Assembly: GCF_001644665.1 (NCBI RefSeq)
Contig: NZ_CP011393.1
Coordinates: 1,386,001 to 1,450,000 of the forward strand
Origin: Fervidobacterium pennivorans
Lineage (GTDB): Bacteria > Thermotogota > Thermotogae > Thermotogales > Fervidobacteriaceae
Length of the DNA stretch: 64,000 nt
Direction of reading: 5' to 3'
A model generated the notes under the pieces. That model was not told where the DNA came from. It worked only from the letters and a program-made list of their open reading frames with translations, and did no database searches. A program made the translations under genes and the position numbers. Shown here one piece after another: positions 23,410 through 31,769 of this stretch (within the stretch, counting starts at the first letter, position 1; every line of letters starts with the position of its first letter).

Positions 23410-23447
23410 ACCCCCTTGGGCTAATAAGTGCCAAGGGGGTTAATTTT
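23410..23447 (+). terminator. Terminator after glnA
   Basis: ACCCCCTTGG and CCAAGGGGGT form a perfect 10-bp stem around an 11-base loop, followed by TAATTTT. Confidence 0.9.
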
Positions 23448-23457
23448 AAGATATTAC

Positions 23458-23485
23458 TTGACAAAAATCAGTAGTGATATATAAT
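23458..23485 (+). promoter_or_regulatory. Sigma-A promoter of the PadR gene with possible overlapping operator
   Basis: TTGACA and TATAAT are separated by 16 bases. TGAT-containing short inverted sequences overlap and follow the -10 box (23476-23505), where an autoregulatory PadR site could lie. Confidence 0.75.
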
Positions 23486-23534
23486 CAATGCTGATAATTA
23501 TAACAAGCAGTTGTTGAGGAGGGGAATTGGGTTC

Positions 23535-23915
23535 GTGAGAAGAAAATGCGCATGTCAACATCATGGTGAAGGACATCATGGACCTCATATATGTGAGCAG
23601 TTAGGTTTTTCTGTTGGTGACTATCTTACGGCGGTTGTTTTGAGAGAGCTCTCAAAAAAGCCGATGCATGGTTACGAATTATACGAAAAGATATCACAAT
23701 TGGAATATTATCCATTTAAGCATGATCAAAGTGTCATCTATAGTTTGCTAAGAAAGCTGAACAACCATGGATTGGTGAGTTACTCACTTCAGGAAGGAAA
23801 CGGTGGGTTGAGGAAAGTCTACGAAATAACAGAAGAAGGTCTCAAATACTTGGAGCAGTTGGTGGAATACATATCGAAGTTAAAGCAAGCGTTTGATTTG
23901 TTTTTGAATGCCTGA
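23535..23915 (+). CDS. PadR-family regulator with His/Cys-rich N-terminus
   Basis: This 126-residue protein has a PadR winged helix: AVVLRELSKKPMHGYELYEKI, SVIYSLLRKLNNHGLVSY, RKVYEITEEGLKYL. The start is GTG 23535, behind GAGGAGGGG. The segment before the winged helix is unusual: RRKCACQHHGEGHHGPHICEQ has three cysteines and five histidines, suggesting a metal or redox centre that controls DNA binding. It is followed after 38 bases by a His-rich NifX/NafY-like gene, probably its target and operon partner. The metal-sensor role is inference. Confidence 0.85.
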   Translation: MRRKCACQHHGEGHHGPHICEQLGFSVGDYLTAVVLRELSKKPMHGYELYEKISQLEYYPFKHDQSVIYSLLRKLNNHGLVSYSLQEGNGGLRKVYEITEEGLKYLEQLVEYISKLKQAFDLFLNA

Positions 23916-23953
23916 AAGATGGAAAAGAATCAAACTTGAAGGAGGTGTTGGGT

Positions 23954-24400
23954 GTGAAAATTGCGATTCCCACTGACGATGGAAAAACGGTGGCAAGTCA
24001 CTTTGGTAGGGCTGAGTATTTTATGATAGTTGAACTCCAAGATGGAAAAGAAATAGCCAGAAGACTTTCAGAAAATCTTCATGCAAGAGGACATGGTCAT
24101 CATGGTCATCATGGTTATCACGAGCATTATGAAGAACACGAGAATCACGAAGGATATGGTCATGGTTGGCATCATGGTAATCACGGCTTTGGTGAAGGTC
24201 ATCACCACGGGCATGAAGACGTATTTGCCTCGACAGGAGAGATTCAAGCAGTTATTGCTGTTAGGATAGGACCACATATGTTTGAGGATTTGAAAGAGAG
24301 AGGTATAGAAATTTACTTGGTTCAACCAGGAACAGATATTGATGAAGCAATTTCAAAACTTGCTTCGGGAGAACTGAGAAGAATTGAACCAAAAAAGTAA
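23954..24400 (+). CDS. NifX/NafY-like (dinitrogenase Fe-Mo cofactor family) protein with His-rich insert
   Basis: The start is GTG 23954 behind GGAGG. The 148-residue protein begins VKIAIPTDDGKTVASHFGRAEYFMIVEL, typical of the dinitrogenase iron-molybdenum cofactor family, and ends with VIAVRIGPHMFEDLKERGIEIYL and GTDIDEAISKL. Between them (about residues 43-92) is an insert with about 18 histidines, such as HGHHGHHGYHEH and GHHHGHED. No nif genes are present, so nitrogen fixation is not implied. Binding, storing or delivering a metal or metal cluster is likely. Confidence 0.85.
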   Translation: MKIAIPTDDGKTVASHFGRAEYFMIVELQDGKEIARRLSENLHARGHGHHGHHGYHEHYEEHENHEGYGHGWHHGNHGFGEGHHHGHEDVFASTGEIQAVIAVRIGPHMFEDLKERGIEIYLVQPGTDIDEAISKLASGELRRIEPKK

Positions 24401-24422: not shown

Positions 24423-24455
24423 AAACCGACGCTTTAAAGGCGTCGGTTTTATTAT
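24423..24455 (+). terminator. Terminator after the NifX/NafY-like gene
   Basis: AAACCGACGC and GCGTCGGTTT pair around TTTAAAG and are followed by TATTAT; it separates this pair from the two-component system. Confidence 0.88.
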
Positions 24456-24523: not shown

Positions 24524-25513
24524 TTGCGAGTTTTCCTATTTTTGCAAGTAATAGCACTTATTATCTTCGTATATACGATGTATTTTTTACCTTCAAATTT
24601 GTATTTCATCTCTGTTGTATCTGTGTTTGTCATAGTGAACACTGTTGGTTTGACTTATTATGTTTTCAGAACTTGGTGGAAGGAGCTACAGAATCCTGGA
24701 AAAATAACTAAATTTCTGTATTTTACACTATTGTTCATTGCAGTTATTGCTGTAATTTTCTTGTTTTCAAATATCTTCAGAATGTGGGTTTACAAATATC
24801 CAGAAGATTCGCTTGTGAACTTTTCAAATTCGTTACTTGTTATTTCTACCTTTCTTTTGGTTTCTTTTGGAATTTCTTATTTAACTTTGAAGAGAGAATT
24901 AGAAAAACAATTGCAAGAATATGAGAAGTTAAGAAACGTCCAGCAGAAGTTGAGCATCCAGGTTGTGAGATACAAAACAAACCCACATTTTCTTTTCAAT
25001 TCGTTGAGCACAGCAATTTCAATGTTGCACCTACAAGTGGAAAGAGAGAAGATTAGAGAATATTTGTCAAACATCGCAGAGCTTTTCAGAGTTGTGTTGA
25101 ATGCACCTGAAGTCTGGACATTGAAGGATGAACTGGAACTTGCCAAGCGCTATCTTGAGATACAAAAAGTTAGGGTGGAAGGTCTTGAGTATGAAATTAC
25201 TATGGGTCCAGCATGTGAGACAGTGAGAATTCCTTCTTTGGTTTTGCAACCAATAGTAGAAAATTCTATAGTTCATGGAATAGCGAAATCGAAAAACGGC
25301 GGGAAGATAAAACTGGAATGTATGAAAGTTAATGGGATTGTTACTATAAAGGTTAGTGATAACGGGAAAGGTGGAGAGAAGATAATTCCAGGAATGGGCT
25401 TAAAACTTGTTCAAGAATTGATGAGTGCTTTTTCACGGAAGGTGGAGTTAAATTTTGAAACTTCCCCGGAAGTTGGAACGATTGTTACTCTTTCCTGGGA
25501 GGATGTTAACTAA
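24524..25513 (+). CDS. LytS/YehU-type sensor histidine kinase
   Basis: This 329-residue membrane kinase starts with TTG 24524 behind AAGGGGTGA. Residues 1-120 hold about four membrane helices with no large extracytoplasmic domain, followed by a coiled coil (about 125-150). The His_kinase block is KTNPHFLFNSLSTAISMLHLQ, with the phosphoacceptor histidine at about residue 154. A GHKL ATPase domain follows with the N-box LQPIVENSIVHGI and the G-box VSDNGKGG and GMGLKLVQE. It is 30 bases upstream of its LytTR regulator. The signal is unknown. Confidence 0.92.
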   Translation: MRVFLFLQVIALIIFVYTMYFLPSNLYFISVVSVFVIVNTVGLTYYVFRTWWKELQNPGKITKFLYFTLLFIAVIAVIFLFSNIFRMWVYKYPEDSLVNFSNSLLVISTFLLVSFGISYLTLKRELEKQLQEYEKLRNVQQKLSIQVVRYKTNPHFLFNSLSTAISMLHLQVEREKIREYLSNIAELFRVVLNAPEVWTLKDELELAKRYLEIQKVRVEGLEYEITMGPACETVRIPSLVLQPIVENSIVHGIAKSKNGGKIKLECMKVNGIVTIKVSDNGKGGEKIIPGMGLKLVQELMSAFSRKVELNFETSPEVGTIVTLSWEDVN

Positions 25514-25543
25514 ATTAGAAAAGATTCTTCAAGGGGGGAGTCA

Positions 25544-26278
25544 ATGACTTGCGTAATTGTTGAAGATGAAAAACTTTTAGCGATGTTATTGGAAAAAATG
25601 GTAAAAGAAGAAGGACTGGAAGTGCTTGGTGTTGCCAAGGATGCAGAAGAAGCGATAAAAATGATAGACGAGAAAAAACCTGAGGTAGTTTTTCTTGATA
25701 TAAACCTTGGAGAACACGATGGGTTTTACGTGCTCCAACATATCAATCACAAACCATACGTCATATTTACTACCGCCTACTCTGAGTATGCGGTAAAGGC
25801 TTTTGAAGAAAACGCCGTGGATTATCTTTTAAAGCCGATAAAAAAGGAAAGGTTGCGGGAAGCTATTGAAAGGGTTAGAAAGTTGAGTACTTTTGAAAAA
25901 GCGAATATAGCTGATAACATTCAAAGATTAAAAGAGTTAGCGCAAAAATTGAAAACAGACAAGTTCATTGTAGAAACTGGCGATGAAATAGTTTTTCTAA
26001 ATGTCGATGAGATAATCTTTCTAACCTCGGACGAAGGCGAGACGGTAGTCGTTACAAAGGATGGTAAGATGAAGACAAAGATGCCACTTAAAGATTGTGA
26101 GATTAAGTTGCCACACGAAAAGTTCCTAAGAGTGCACAAGTCGTATATCGTTAATGTTGAAAAGATAAAAAAGATTATCCGAAATTATTTTGGTTCTTTT
26201 GCCCTTGAACTTTCGAATGGGGATATTATCCCTGTAGGAAGAAATTACAAAGACTCTATAAAAAAACTGCTCGAGTAA
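25544..26278 (+). CDS. LytTR-family response regulator
   Basis: This 244-residue regulator has a receiver domain (1-120) with acidic residues in VIVEDEKLL, the phosphoacceptor aspartate in VVFLDINLGEHDG, and the conserved lysine in DYLLKPIKKERL. Residues about 140-244 are a LytTR DNA-binding domain (DKFIVETGDEIVFLNVDEIIFL, FLRVHKSYIVNVEKI, SNGDIIPVGRNY). It pairs with the upstream kinase. Its coding end lies in the terminator stem. Confidence 0.95.
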   Translation: MTCVIVEDEKLLAMLLEKMVKEEGLEVLGVAKDAEEAIKMIDEKKPEVVFLDINLGEHDGFYVLQHINHKPYVIFTTAYSEYAVKAFEENAVDYLLKPIKKERLREAIERVRKLSTFEKANIADNIQRLKELAQKLKTDKFIVETGDEIVFLNVDEIIFLTSDEGETVVVTKDGKMKTKMPLKDCEIKLPHEKFLRVHKSYIVNVEKIKKIIRNYFGSFALELSNGDIIPVGRNYKDSIKKLLE

Positions 26279-30825: not shown

Positions 30826-30893
30826 AGTAACAGAAAAAATTGTGCGGAATACGAACATTTGTAGATGATTCTACTTTGCCTGAGGTGATAAAT

Positions 30894-31769
30894 GTGAACT
30901 GGAAGGTTTATATTTCTGGATTTGCAGTTTCAACGATATTTGGGTTATCATTCCTTTTTACTAAAAACAGTATAGAACATATAAACGTTTACACGTTTTT
31001 AGCCTTTAGGTTTGGTGTGGCAACCAGTGTGATGCTATTACTTTGGCTTTTTGGAATCGTAAAATTAACAAAGAAACCATTTTGGAAATTATGGAAAGTA
31101 GCGCTATTTCAACCGATTGCTTACTTTGTGTTCGAGACTAATGGACTCAGGTTTACGACGTCCTCTGAGGCTGGGATGTTGATTGCATTAATTCCAATCG
31201 TTATAACGATTTTGAGTCCAGCATTGCTGAAAGAAAGAATCAGATGGTACCAAATTCTCTTCGCATTTCTTAGCTTTTTTGGAGTGTTTCTTATCGTCAA
31301 AGGTGGGGGATTAGAACAAGGAGCGCTACTTGGAAAGCTGTTGGTTTTGGGTGCGGTTTTCTCCGCAGCATTTTACAATATTTTCTCGAGAAAGCTATCC
31401 TCAGAGTTCACTCCTGTTGAGATAACGTTCTTTATGATGCTTACGGGATTTGTCTTTTTCTTTTTCCTGAGCATCGTAACAGGAAATTTCACAATCGCAT
31501 TCCACCCTGCTGTTGTTATTGGAGCATTGTATCTTGGCATACTTTCTTCAACGGTTGCATTTTTTCTTGTGAATTTCATGCTTAGCAAGGTTTCACCAAC
31601 GGTTTCTTCTCTTTTCTCAAATCTAACGACGGTGATATCTGTAATTGCAGGCAGTTTCATTCGGCATGAAAGGATTGCTGCAGTACAAGTATTTGGAATG
31701 ATTTTGATACTTGTTTCGCTAATTCTTAATTCTTATCTGAAAAGCAAAGAAGTTGAACAGAGTAGATAA
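30894..31769 (+). CDS. EamA/DMT-superfamily transporter
   Basis: This 291-residue membrane protein has about ten helices in two EamA repeats (YISGFAVSTIFGLSFLFTKNSIE; then LLGKLLVLGAVFSAAFYNIFSRKL). GTG 30894 has GAGGTGATAA at the right spacing; longer frames add a non-membrane leader. DMT transporters move amino acids, nucleosides or other metabolites, and sequence alone does not give the substrate. It is monocistronic and divergent from the heat-shock operon. Confidence 0.88.
   Translation: MNWKVYISGFAVSTIFGLSFLFTKNSIEHINVYTFLAFRFGVATSVMLLLWLFGIVKLTKKPFWKLWKVALFQPIAYFVFETNGLRFTTSSEAGMLIALIPIVITILSPALLKERIRWYQILFAFLSFFGVFLIVKGGGLEQGALLGKLLVLGAVFSAAFYNIFSRKLSSEFTPVEITFFMMLTGFVFFFFLSIVTGNFTIAFHPAVVIGALYLGILSSTVAFFLVNFMLSKVSPTVSSLFSNLTTVISVIAGSFIRHERIAAVQVFGMILILVSLILNSYLKSKEVEQSR

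Follow-up and report, generated by a model that had tools for sequence, protein, structure and literature searches.

The PadR-family regulator and the DIN/NifX-like protein encoded next to it form an operon that is well supported as a self-contained unit, and the sequence of its promoter region makes it very likely that PadR represses only this operon. We read the pair as a variant of an under-described PadR-DIN module in which both proteins gained extra ligands in one lineage. The overall proposal, namely a negatively autoregulated PadR-DIN operon with an Fe-S- or metal-tuned leader and with DIN as a buffer or carrier, has in our estimation an even chance of being correct. In its heat-loving anaerobic host, the pair has the appearance of a private buffer for metal or iron-sulfur, and a metal sensor/buffer role is plausible on the basis of the encoded residues.

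DIN proteins are widespread in organisms that lack nitrogenase and for the most part await explanation, and a conserved putative PadR operator in front of DIN genes offers a direct handle on the timing of DIN production. A metal or Fe-S signal should be most readily measured with this Cys/His-loaded version of the pair. If true, the proposal would give the PadR superfamily a metal or Fe-S input and link orphan NifX-like proteins with metal buffering in anaerobes; in the open literature, we found nothing on PadR together with DIN genes and nothing on Fe-S- or metal-sensing PadR proteins.

Organization and conservation of the operon

In the window (the whole stretch of 64,000 nucleotides analyzed, belonging to a single-contig genome of 2.06 Mb), glnA is followed by the PadR gene and, after 38 bases, by the DIN/NifX-like gene (Table 1). 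The GTG start codon of PadR is supported by the ribosome-binding site preceding it and by the leader, which is conserved from RRKC onward. The original prediction of a self-contained unit is well supported: the unit has a promoter to itself, is flanked by terminators, carries the only operator of the genome, and is conserved as a pair among changing neighbors.

Table 1. Coordinates of the features of the PadR-DIN operon in the window
Feature	Position	Strand	Details
Hairpin resembling a terminator, behind glnA; insulates the unit on its upstream side	23410..23440	+	dG -21.1 kcal/mol, z -3.0, then TTAATTTT
Sigma-70-type promoter TTGACA-16-TATAAT	23458..23485	+	12/12 consensus bases; layout kept in relatives
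Putative PadR operator	23468..23494	.	TCAGTAGTGATATATAATCAATGCTGA; 27-bp inverted repeat over spacer and -10
Ribosome-binding site of PadR	23518..23525	+	GGAGGGGA
PadR-family regulator, 126 aa	23535..23915	+	GTG start at 23535, stop at 23915; PF03551 E 1.5e-13, residues 35-107
Cys/His leader of PadR, residues 1-24	23535..23606	+	C5, C7, H18, C20 invariant in 7/7
Ribosome-binding site of the DIN gene	23938..23947	+	GAAGGAGGTG
DIN/NifX-like protein, 148 aa	23954..24400	+	GTG start; PF02579 E 2.6e-18
His-rich insert, residues 43-90, loop before second alpha-beta half of DIN fold	24080..24223	+	18 His, 12 Gly of 48
Intrinsic terminator closing the two-gene unit	24423..24449	+	dG -17.0 kcal/mol, z -6.1, T-rich tail

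A search of 45 genomes of the order, followed by reading of the loci, identified the adjacent PadR-DIN pair in identical order in seven genomes of two genera: the present one, four of the eight other genomes of the genus (G012-G015), and two of the sister genus (G020 and G021). All seven pairs carry the His-rich insert. Two further genomes of the genus, G016 and G019, have no such pair, which is therefore dispensable there. The 3' neighbors vary, with LytS/LytTR here and Fe-ADH, phosphorylase, and others in relatives. A LytS-type histidine kinase and a LytTR response regulator are encoded directly 3' of the pair (24524-26278); of the relatives read, G015 alone has them in this position.

The expected absence of nearby nif genes extends to the entire genome, in which the NifD/K family (PF00148) has no match and only one DIN gene is present. 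Likewise, no metal exporter was recognized in the translated frames within approximately 8 kb of the pair, the sole transporter seen nearby being EamA (30840-31769). Mrp/NBP35-type genes are located elsewhere in the genome and not beside the pair, and no DUF5320 gene was found in it. The genome also encodes a ferritin, and iron storage is thus not left to the PadR-DIN unit alone.

The putative operator and probable autoregulation

The DNA region originally proposed for PadR binding (23458-23505) does contain a putative operator; the region was drawn too widely, as the repeat occupies its narrower central part and overlaps the promoter (Table 1). In this repeat, 9 of the 11 tested position pairs are complementary, and alignment of the upstream regions yields the consensus TCAnTAnTGATATATAATYAnTAYTGA. 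Over the seven pair promoters, symmetry reached 51 of 77 pairs compared with 24.2 +/- 4.0 in 2000 shuffles (maximum 38) and with at most 35 at other offsets; the symmetry center was picked after the motif was seen, a choice that the scan of offsets controls for in part. The operator is conserved at all seven pairs, with the G014 copy shifted upstream over the -35 and spacer.

With up to three mismatches allowed, the present genome contains a single operator site, located at the promoter of the pair, and one operator locus each, again at the pair's promoter, was found in G012-G015 and G021, while the promoter copy in G020 diverges beyond this threshold. The same scan found no site in G016 and G019, both devoid of the pair, and a reversed-pattern control gave no sites. 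A regulon beyond the operon was rejected, since no further site with up to three mismatches occurs in the genome. The promoter architecture strongly suggests that PadR represses both genes by binding the inverted repeat, which covers the -10 of their sole promoter. A repressor bound there, over spacer and -10, would keep RNA polymerase off. Loss of repression would then lead to production of the DIN protein.

The Cys/His leader and the His-rich insert

PadR belongs to the winged-helix family PF03551 (50.9 bits; curated cut-off of 27) and scores far below the equivalog cut-off for the Rv3488 type (NF053635; 26 bits versus 140). The Cys/His-rich leader predicted to precede the winged helix proved to be conserved: the 24 residues MRRKCACQHHGEGHHGPHICEQ comprise three Cys and five His, and C5, C7, H18, and C20 are constant in all seven PadRs despite the varying length of the stretch between them. 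Each of these proteins has exactly three Cys, all within the leader and none elsewhere. The AlphaFold2 model is confident for the winged helix from approximately residue 27, and in this apo model the leader (residues 1-22) is disordered. PadR regulators such as TM0937, LmrR, and others have in common with the present protein the winged-helix core and C-terminal helix, but the latter differs from them in its Cys/His leader and in its putative operator, an inverted repeat that spans the -10 and has a TGAT-N5-ATCA core. The leader represents a conserved Cys/His site of metal type, through which PadR may sense a metal.

The DIN protein is a member of PF02579 (66.5 bits; cut-off of 26.3), its match being split in two by the insert, and Foldseek paired its model with solved DIN structures at a probability of 1.00, the fold matching MJ0327, TM1816, MTH1175, TM1290, NafY, NifX, and ORP. 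In agreement with the approximately 18 His originally noticed in an insert of the cofactor-binding domain, 18 of its 20 His are located in residues 43-90, and it contains no Cys. The best 40-residue stretch holds 16 His, compared with 7 in the runner-up among 110 open frames in the window. AlphaFold2 predicts a confident core and a disordered insert (approximately residues 54-84). Across the seven partners, the insert varies in length and sequence and is always His/Gly-rich (13-20 His per protein); among the sampled loci, it was otherwise found only in G028. Conservation of both the leader and the insert in relatives argues that they did not arise by chance.

Members of the DIN family (PF02579/IPR003731), including MTH1175, TM1816, TM1290, and MJ0327, have the same domain and fold, but their loop with a conserved His (EHGPG/AHGAG type) here holds a 48-residue His/Gly-rich insert. 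With NifX/NafY cofactor chaperones the protein shares the fold and the His of the HFG motif (H16), which we take to be equivalent to NafY His121; unlike in these proteins, the Cys four residues past this His in the NifX-type HFGxC motif is replaced by Ala (HFGRA), and the genome encodes no nitrogenase family. The NifX equivalog score (TIGR02663) is 19.2 bits versus a cut-off of 112, and the nitrogenase genes that NifX/NafY function presupposes are absent (PF00148). NafY His121 is a ligand of FeMo-co (PMC6428710).

In the ORP/MrpORP Fe-S systems of Desulfovibrio, DIN domains are tied to Fe-S delivery, and related PadR-DIN modules of the phylum carry NUBPL-type ATPases, unlike the present pair, which has none beside it. 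The MrpORP model (NF041136; P-loop NTPase fused to DIN) was matched by the DIN part only (33.1 bits versus 450). Relatives that share the DIN domain bind Fe-S species and pass them on (MrpORP; PMC6345978), and family precedents for an Fe-S role comprise both IssA (PMC5524996) and MrpORP (PMC6345978). Pyrococcus furiosus IssA also combines a DIN domain with a low-complexity Gly/aromatic segment, as found here, and MTH1175, the best PDB sequence match of our DIN protein, is marked as the IssA homolog (PMC5524996). An IssA-like bacterial iron-sulfur (thioferrate) store, in which a Gly/His/aromatic loop takes the place of the IssA tail, would be in line with this common domain family; it is nonetheless improbable, because the IssA tail is C-terminal, Gly-rich, and cationic (pI 10.7; PMC5524996), whereas the insert is internal, His-rich, and has a pI of approximately 6.2 (approximately 6.0 for the whole protein), and because the genome contains a ferritin gene.

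The disordered leader's site of three Cys and one His (C5, C7, H18, and C20) is most likely a ligand set for a metal ion or an Fe-S cluster, whose binding would tune repression to metal or Fe-S status. The NifX-type domain of DIN appears suited to bind iron-sulfur species and may act as a buffer or carrier, with the His-loaded loop adding low-affinity metal capacity. In a specific form of this proposal, which we consider tentative and on balance unlikely, the leader would bind an Fe-S cluster through an IscR-like set of three Cys and one His; PadR would then sense Fe-S and control a dedicated bacterial buffer for Fe-S or metal, with a His-loaded NifX domain as its basis.

The sequence evidence at this locus fits Fe-S, Zn, Ni, Co, or Cu alike. 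His-rich loops are typical of Ni and Zn chaperones, and the presence of Ala in place of the HFGxC Cys, which weakens Fe-S binding, together with 18 His and no Cys leaves room for a divalent-metal role. Homeostasis of Zn, Ni, Co, or Cu, with PadR as a thiolate/imidazole sensor and DIN as a His-rich chaperone or sink whose domain lost its Fe-S function, is a rather doubtful reading; no metal transporter was recognized within approximately 8 kb, the genome has no operator elsewhere, and related modules sit with Fe-S proteins. The latter association makes Fe-S or iron a likelier cargo than a generic metal.

PadR-DIN modules across the phylum

PF02579 was identified in 84 of the 103 genomes of the phylum, and 31 of 70 sampled DIN loci, a count in which the loci described here and some closely related ones are included, have a PadR gene within 1.5 kb in either order. 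The neighbors of these modules include ferredoxins, paired ferredoxin-bearing NUBPL-type ATPases, DUF5320, and ArsP permeases. As the linkage is widespread and often found beside ferredoxins or NUBPL-type ATPases, we read it as an Fe-S or metal buffering module. Outside the phylum, a single scan of genome contigs gave only ordinary PadRs.

A matching operator precedes PadR-DUF5320-DUF5320-DIN in G030 (0 mismatches), DUF5320-DUF5320-DIN in G022, where the PadR ortholog is on another contig, a DUF5320 pair upstream of PadR in G029, and PadR-DIN in G083, which belongs to a distant family; weak matches precede DIN in G023, G025, and G027. One operator for all PadR-DIN pairs of the phylum was rejected, as it was not found in f2, f6, f8, or f9. 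The f1 PadRs of other genera have no Cys/His leader. Because a matching operator is retained with such sister PadRs, recognition of the operator does not require the leader, and ligand sensing by way of the leader is not universal. This retention, along with a continuous PadR-DIN open frame in G058 and the fact that PadR proteins usually bind hydrophobic ligands, would suit a PadR that answers a small molecule or, by protein-protein feedback, DIN itself, the leader being a structural zinc knuckle or DNA-contacting arm and the DIN loop a flexible linker. We regard this as unlikely, considering that the four leader ligands are invariant in a stretch of varying length and that leader and insert co-occur in the same seven genomes.

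In the phylogenetic trees, the seven PadRs group together (99/99) next to leaderless f1 PadRs (90/87), and the His-rich DINs, including that of G028, also group together (100/100), so that the insert may predate the split from G028. Taken with the operators, the leaderless f1 PadRs, and the lack of DUF5320 in the present genome, the trees suggest that PadR control of DIN came first and that the leader and the DUF5320 loss came later. The ancestor would have been a PadR-controlled DIN operon of the kind widespread in the phylum; in the present lineage, the DUF5320 partners were probably lost and both remaining proteins elaborated with metal ligands. A single Cys before helix 1 is enriched in DIN-linked PadRs (21/36 versus 3/20, p 0.002) but was rejected as their general mark, as the rows are related and the test takes no account of this.

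The G028 gene (locus L087, 7904-8299, minus strand) encodes its His-rich DIN without an adjacent PadR, between groES-groEL and sufC-B-D-S-U, and is flanked by terminators; we do not claim membership of the SUF operon, since a terminator and a new promoter lie between this gene and sufC. The frame in G058 (L091, 2624-3550, minus strand) spans the PadR and DIN domains over 309 aa, but a fusion was not accepted, since the DIN start keeps its ribosome-binding site and a lost stop codon or an error in the MAG is as likely. An operator-like site with three mismatches in G022 (L126, 1501-1527, minus strand), located before genes for a predicted decarboxylase-type membrane protein and then a ferredoxin-like protein, may be due to chance.

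PadRs with CxHGHG or CRC leaders occur in genomes without DIN genes (L041, 1450-1842, minus strand; L048, 1486-1854, plus strand). G002, also without a DIN gene, encodes a PadR with the leader NCGCCHW (L037, 1194-1436, minus strand), followed by an 81-aa protein that starts with MCCCGCCCFHCCCCHCCCCKHHGRGHH, a metallothionein-like N-terminus, and has no Pfam match; this protein may be a parallel example of a PadR partner loaded with Cys and His. Two loci (L096, 1543-4093, plus strand; L101, 1821-4344, minus strand) contain a compact operon of PadR, ferredoxin, DIN, and two half-size ArsP_1 permeases, a possible link of DIN modules to metal(loid) export.
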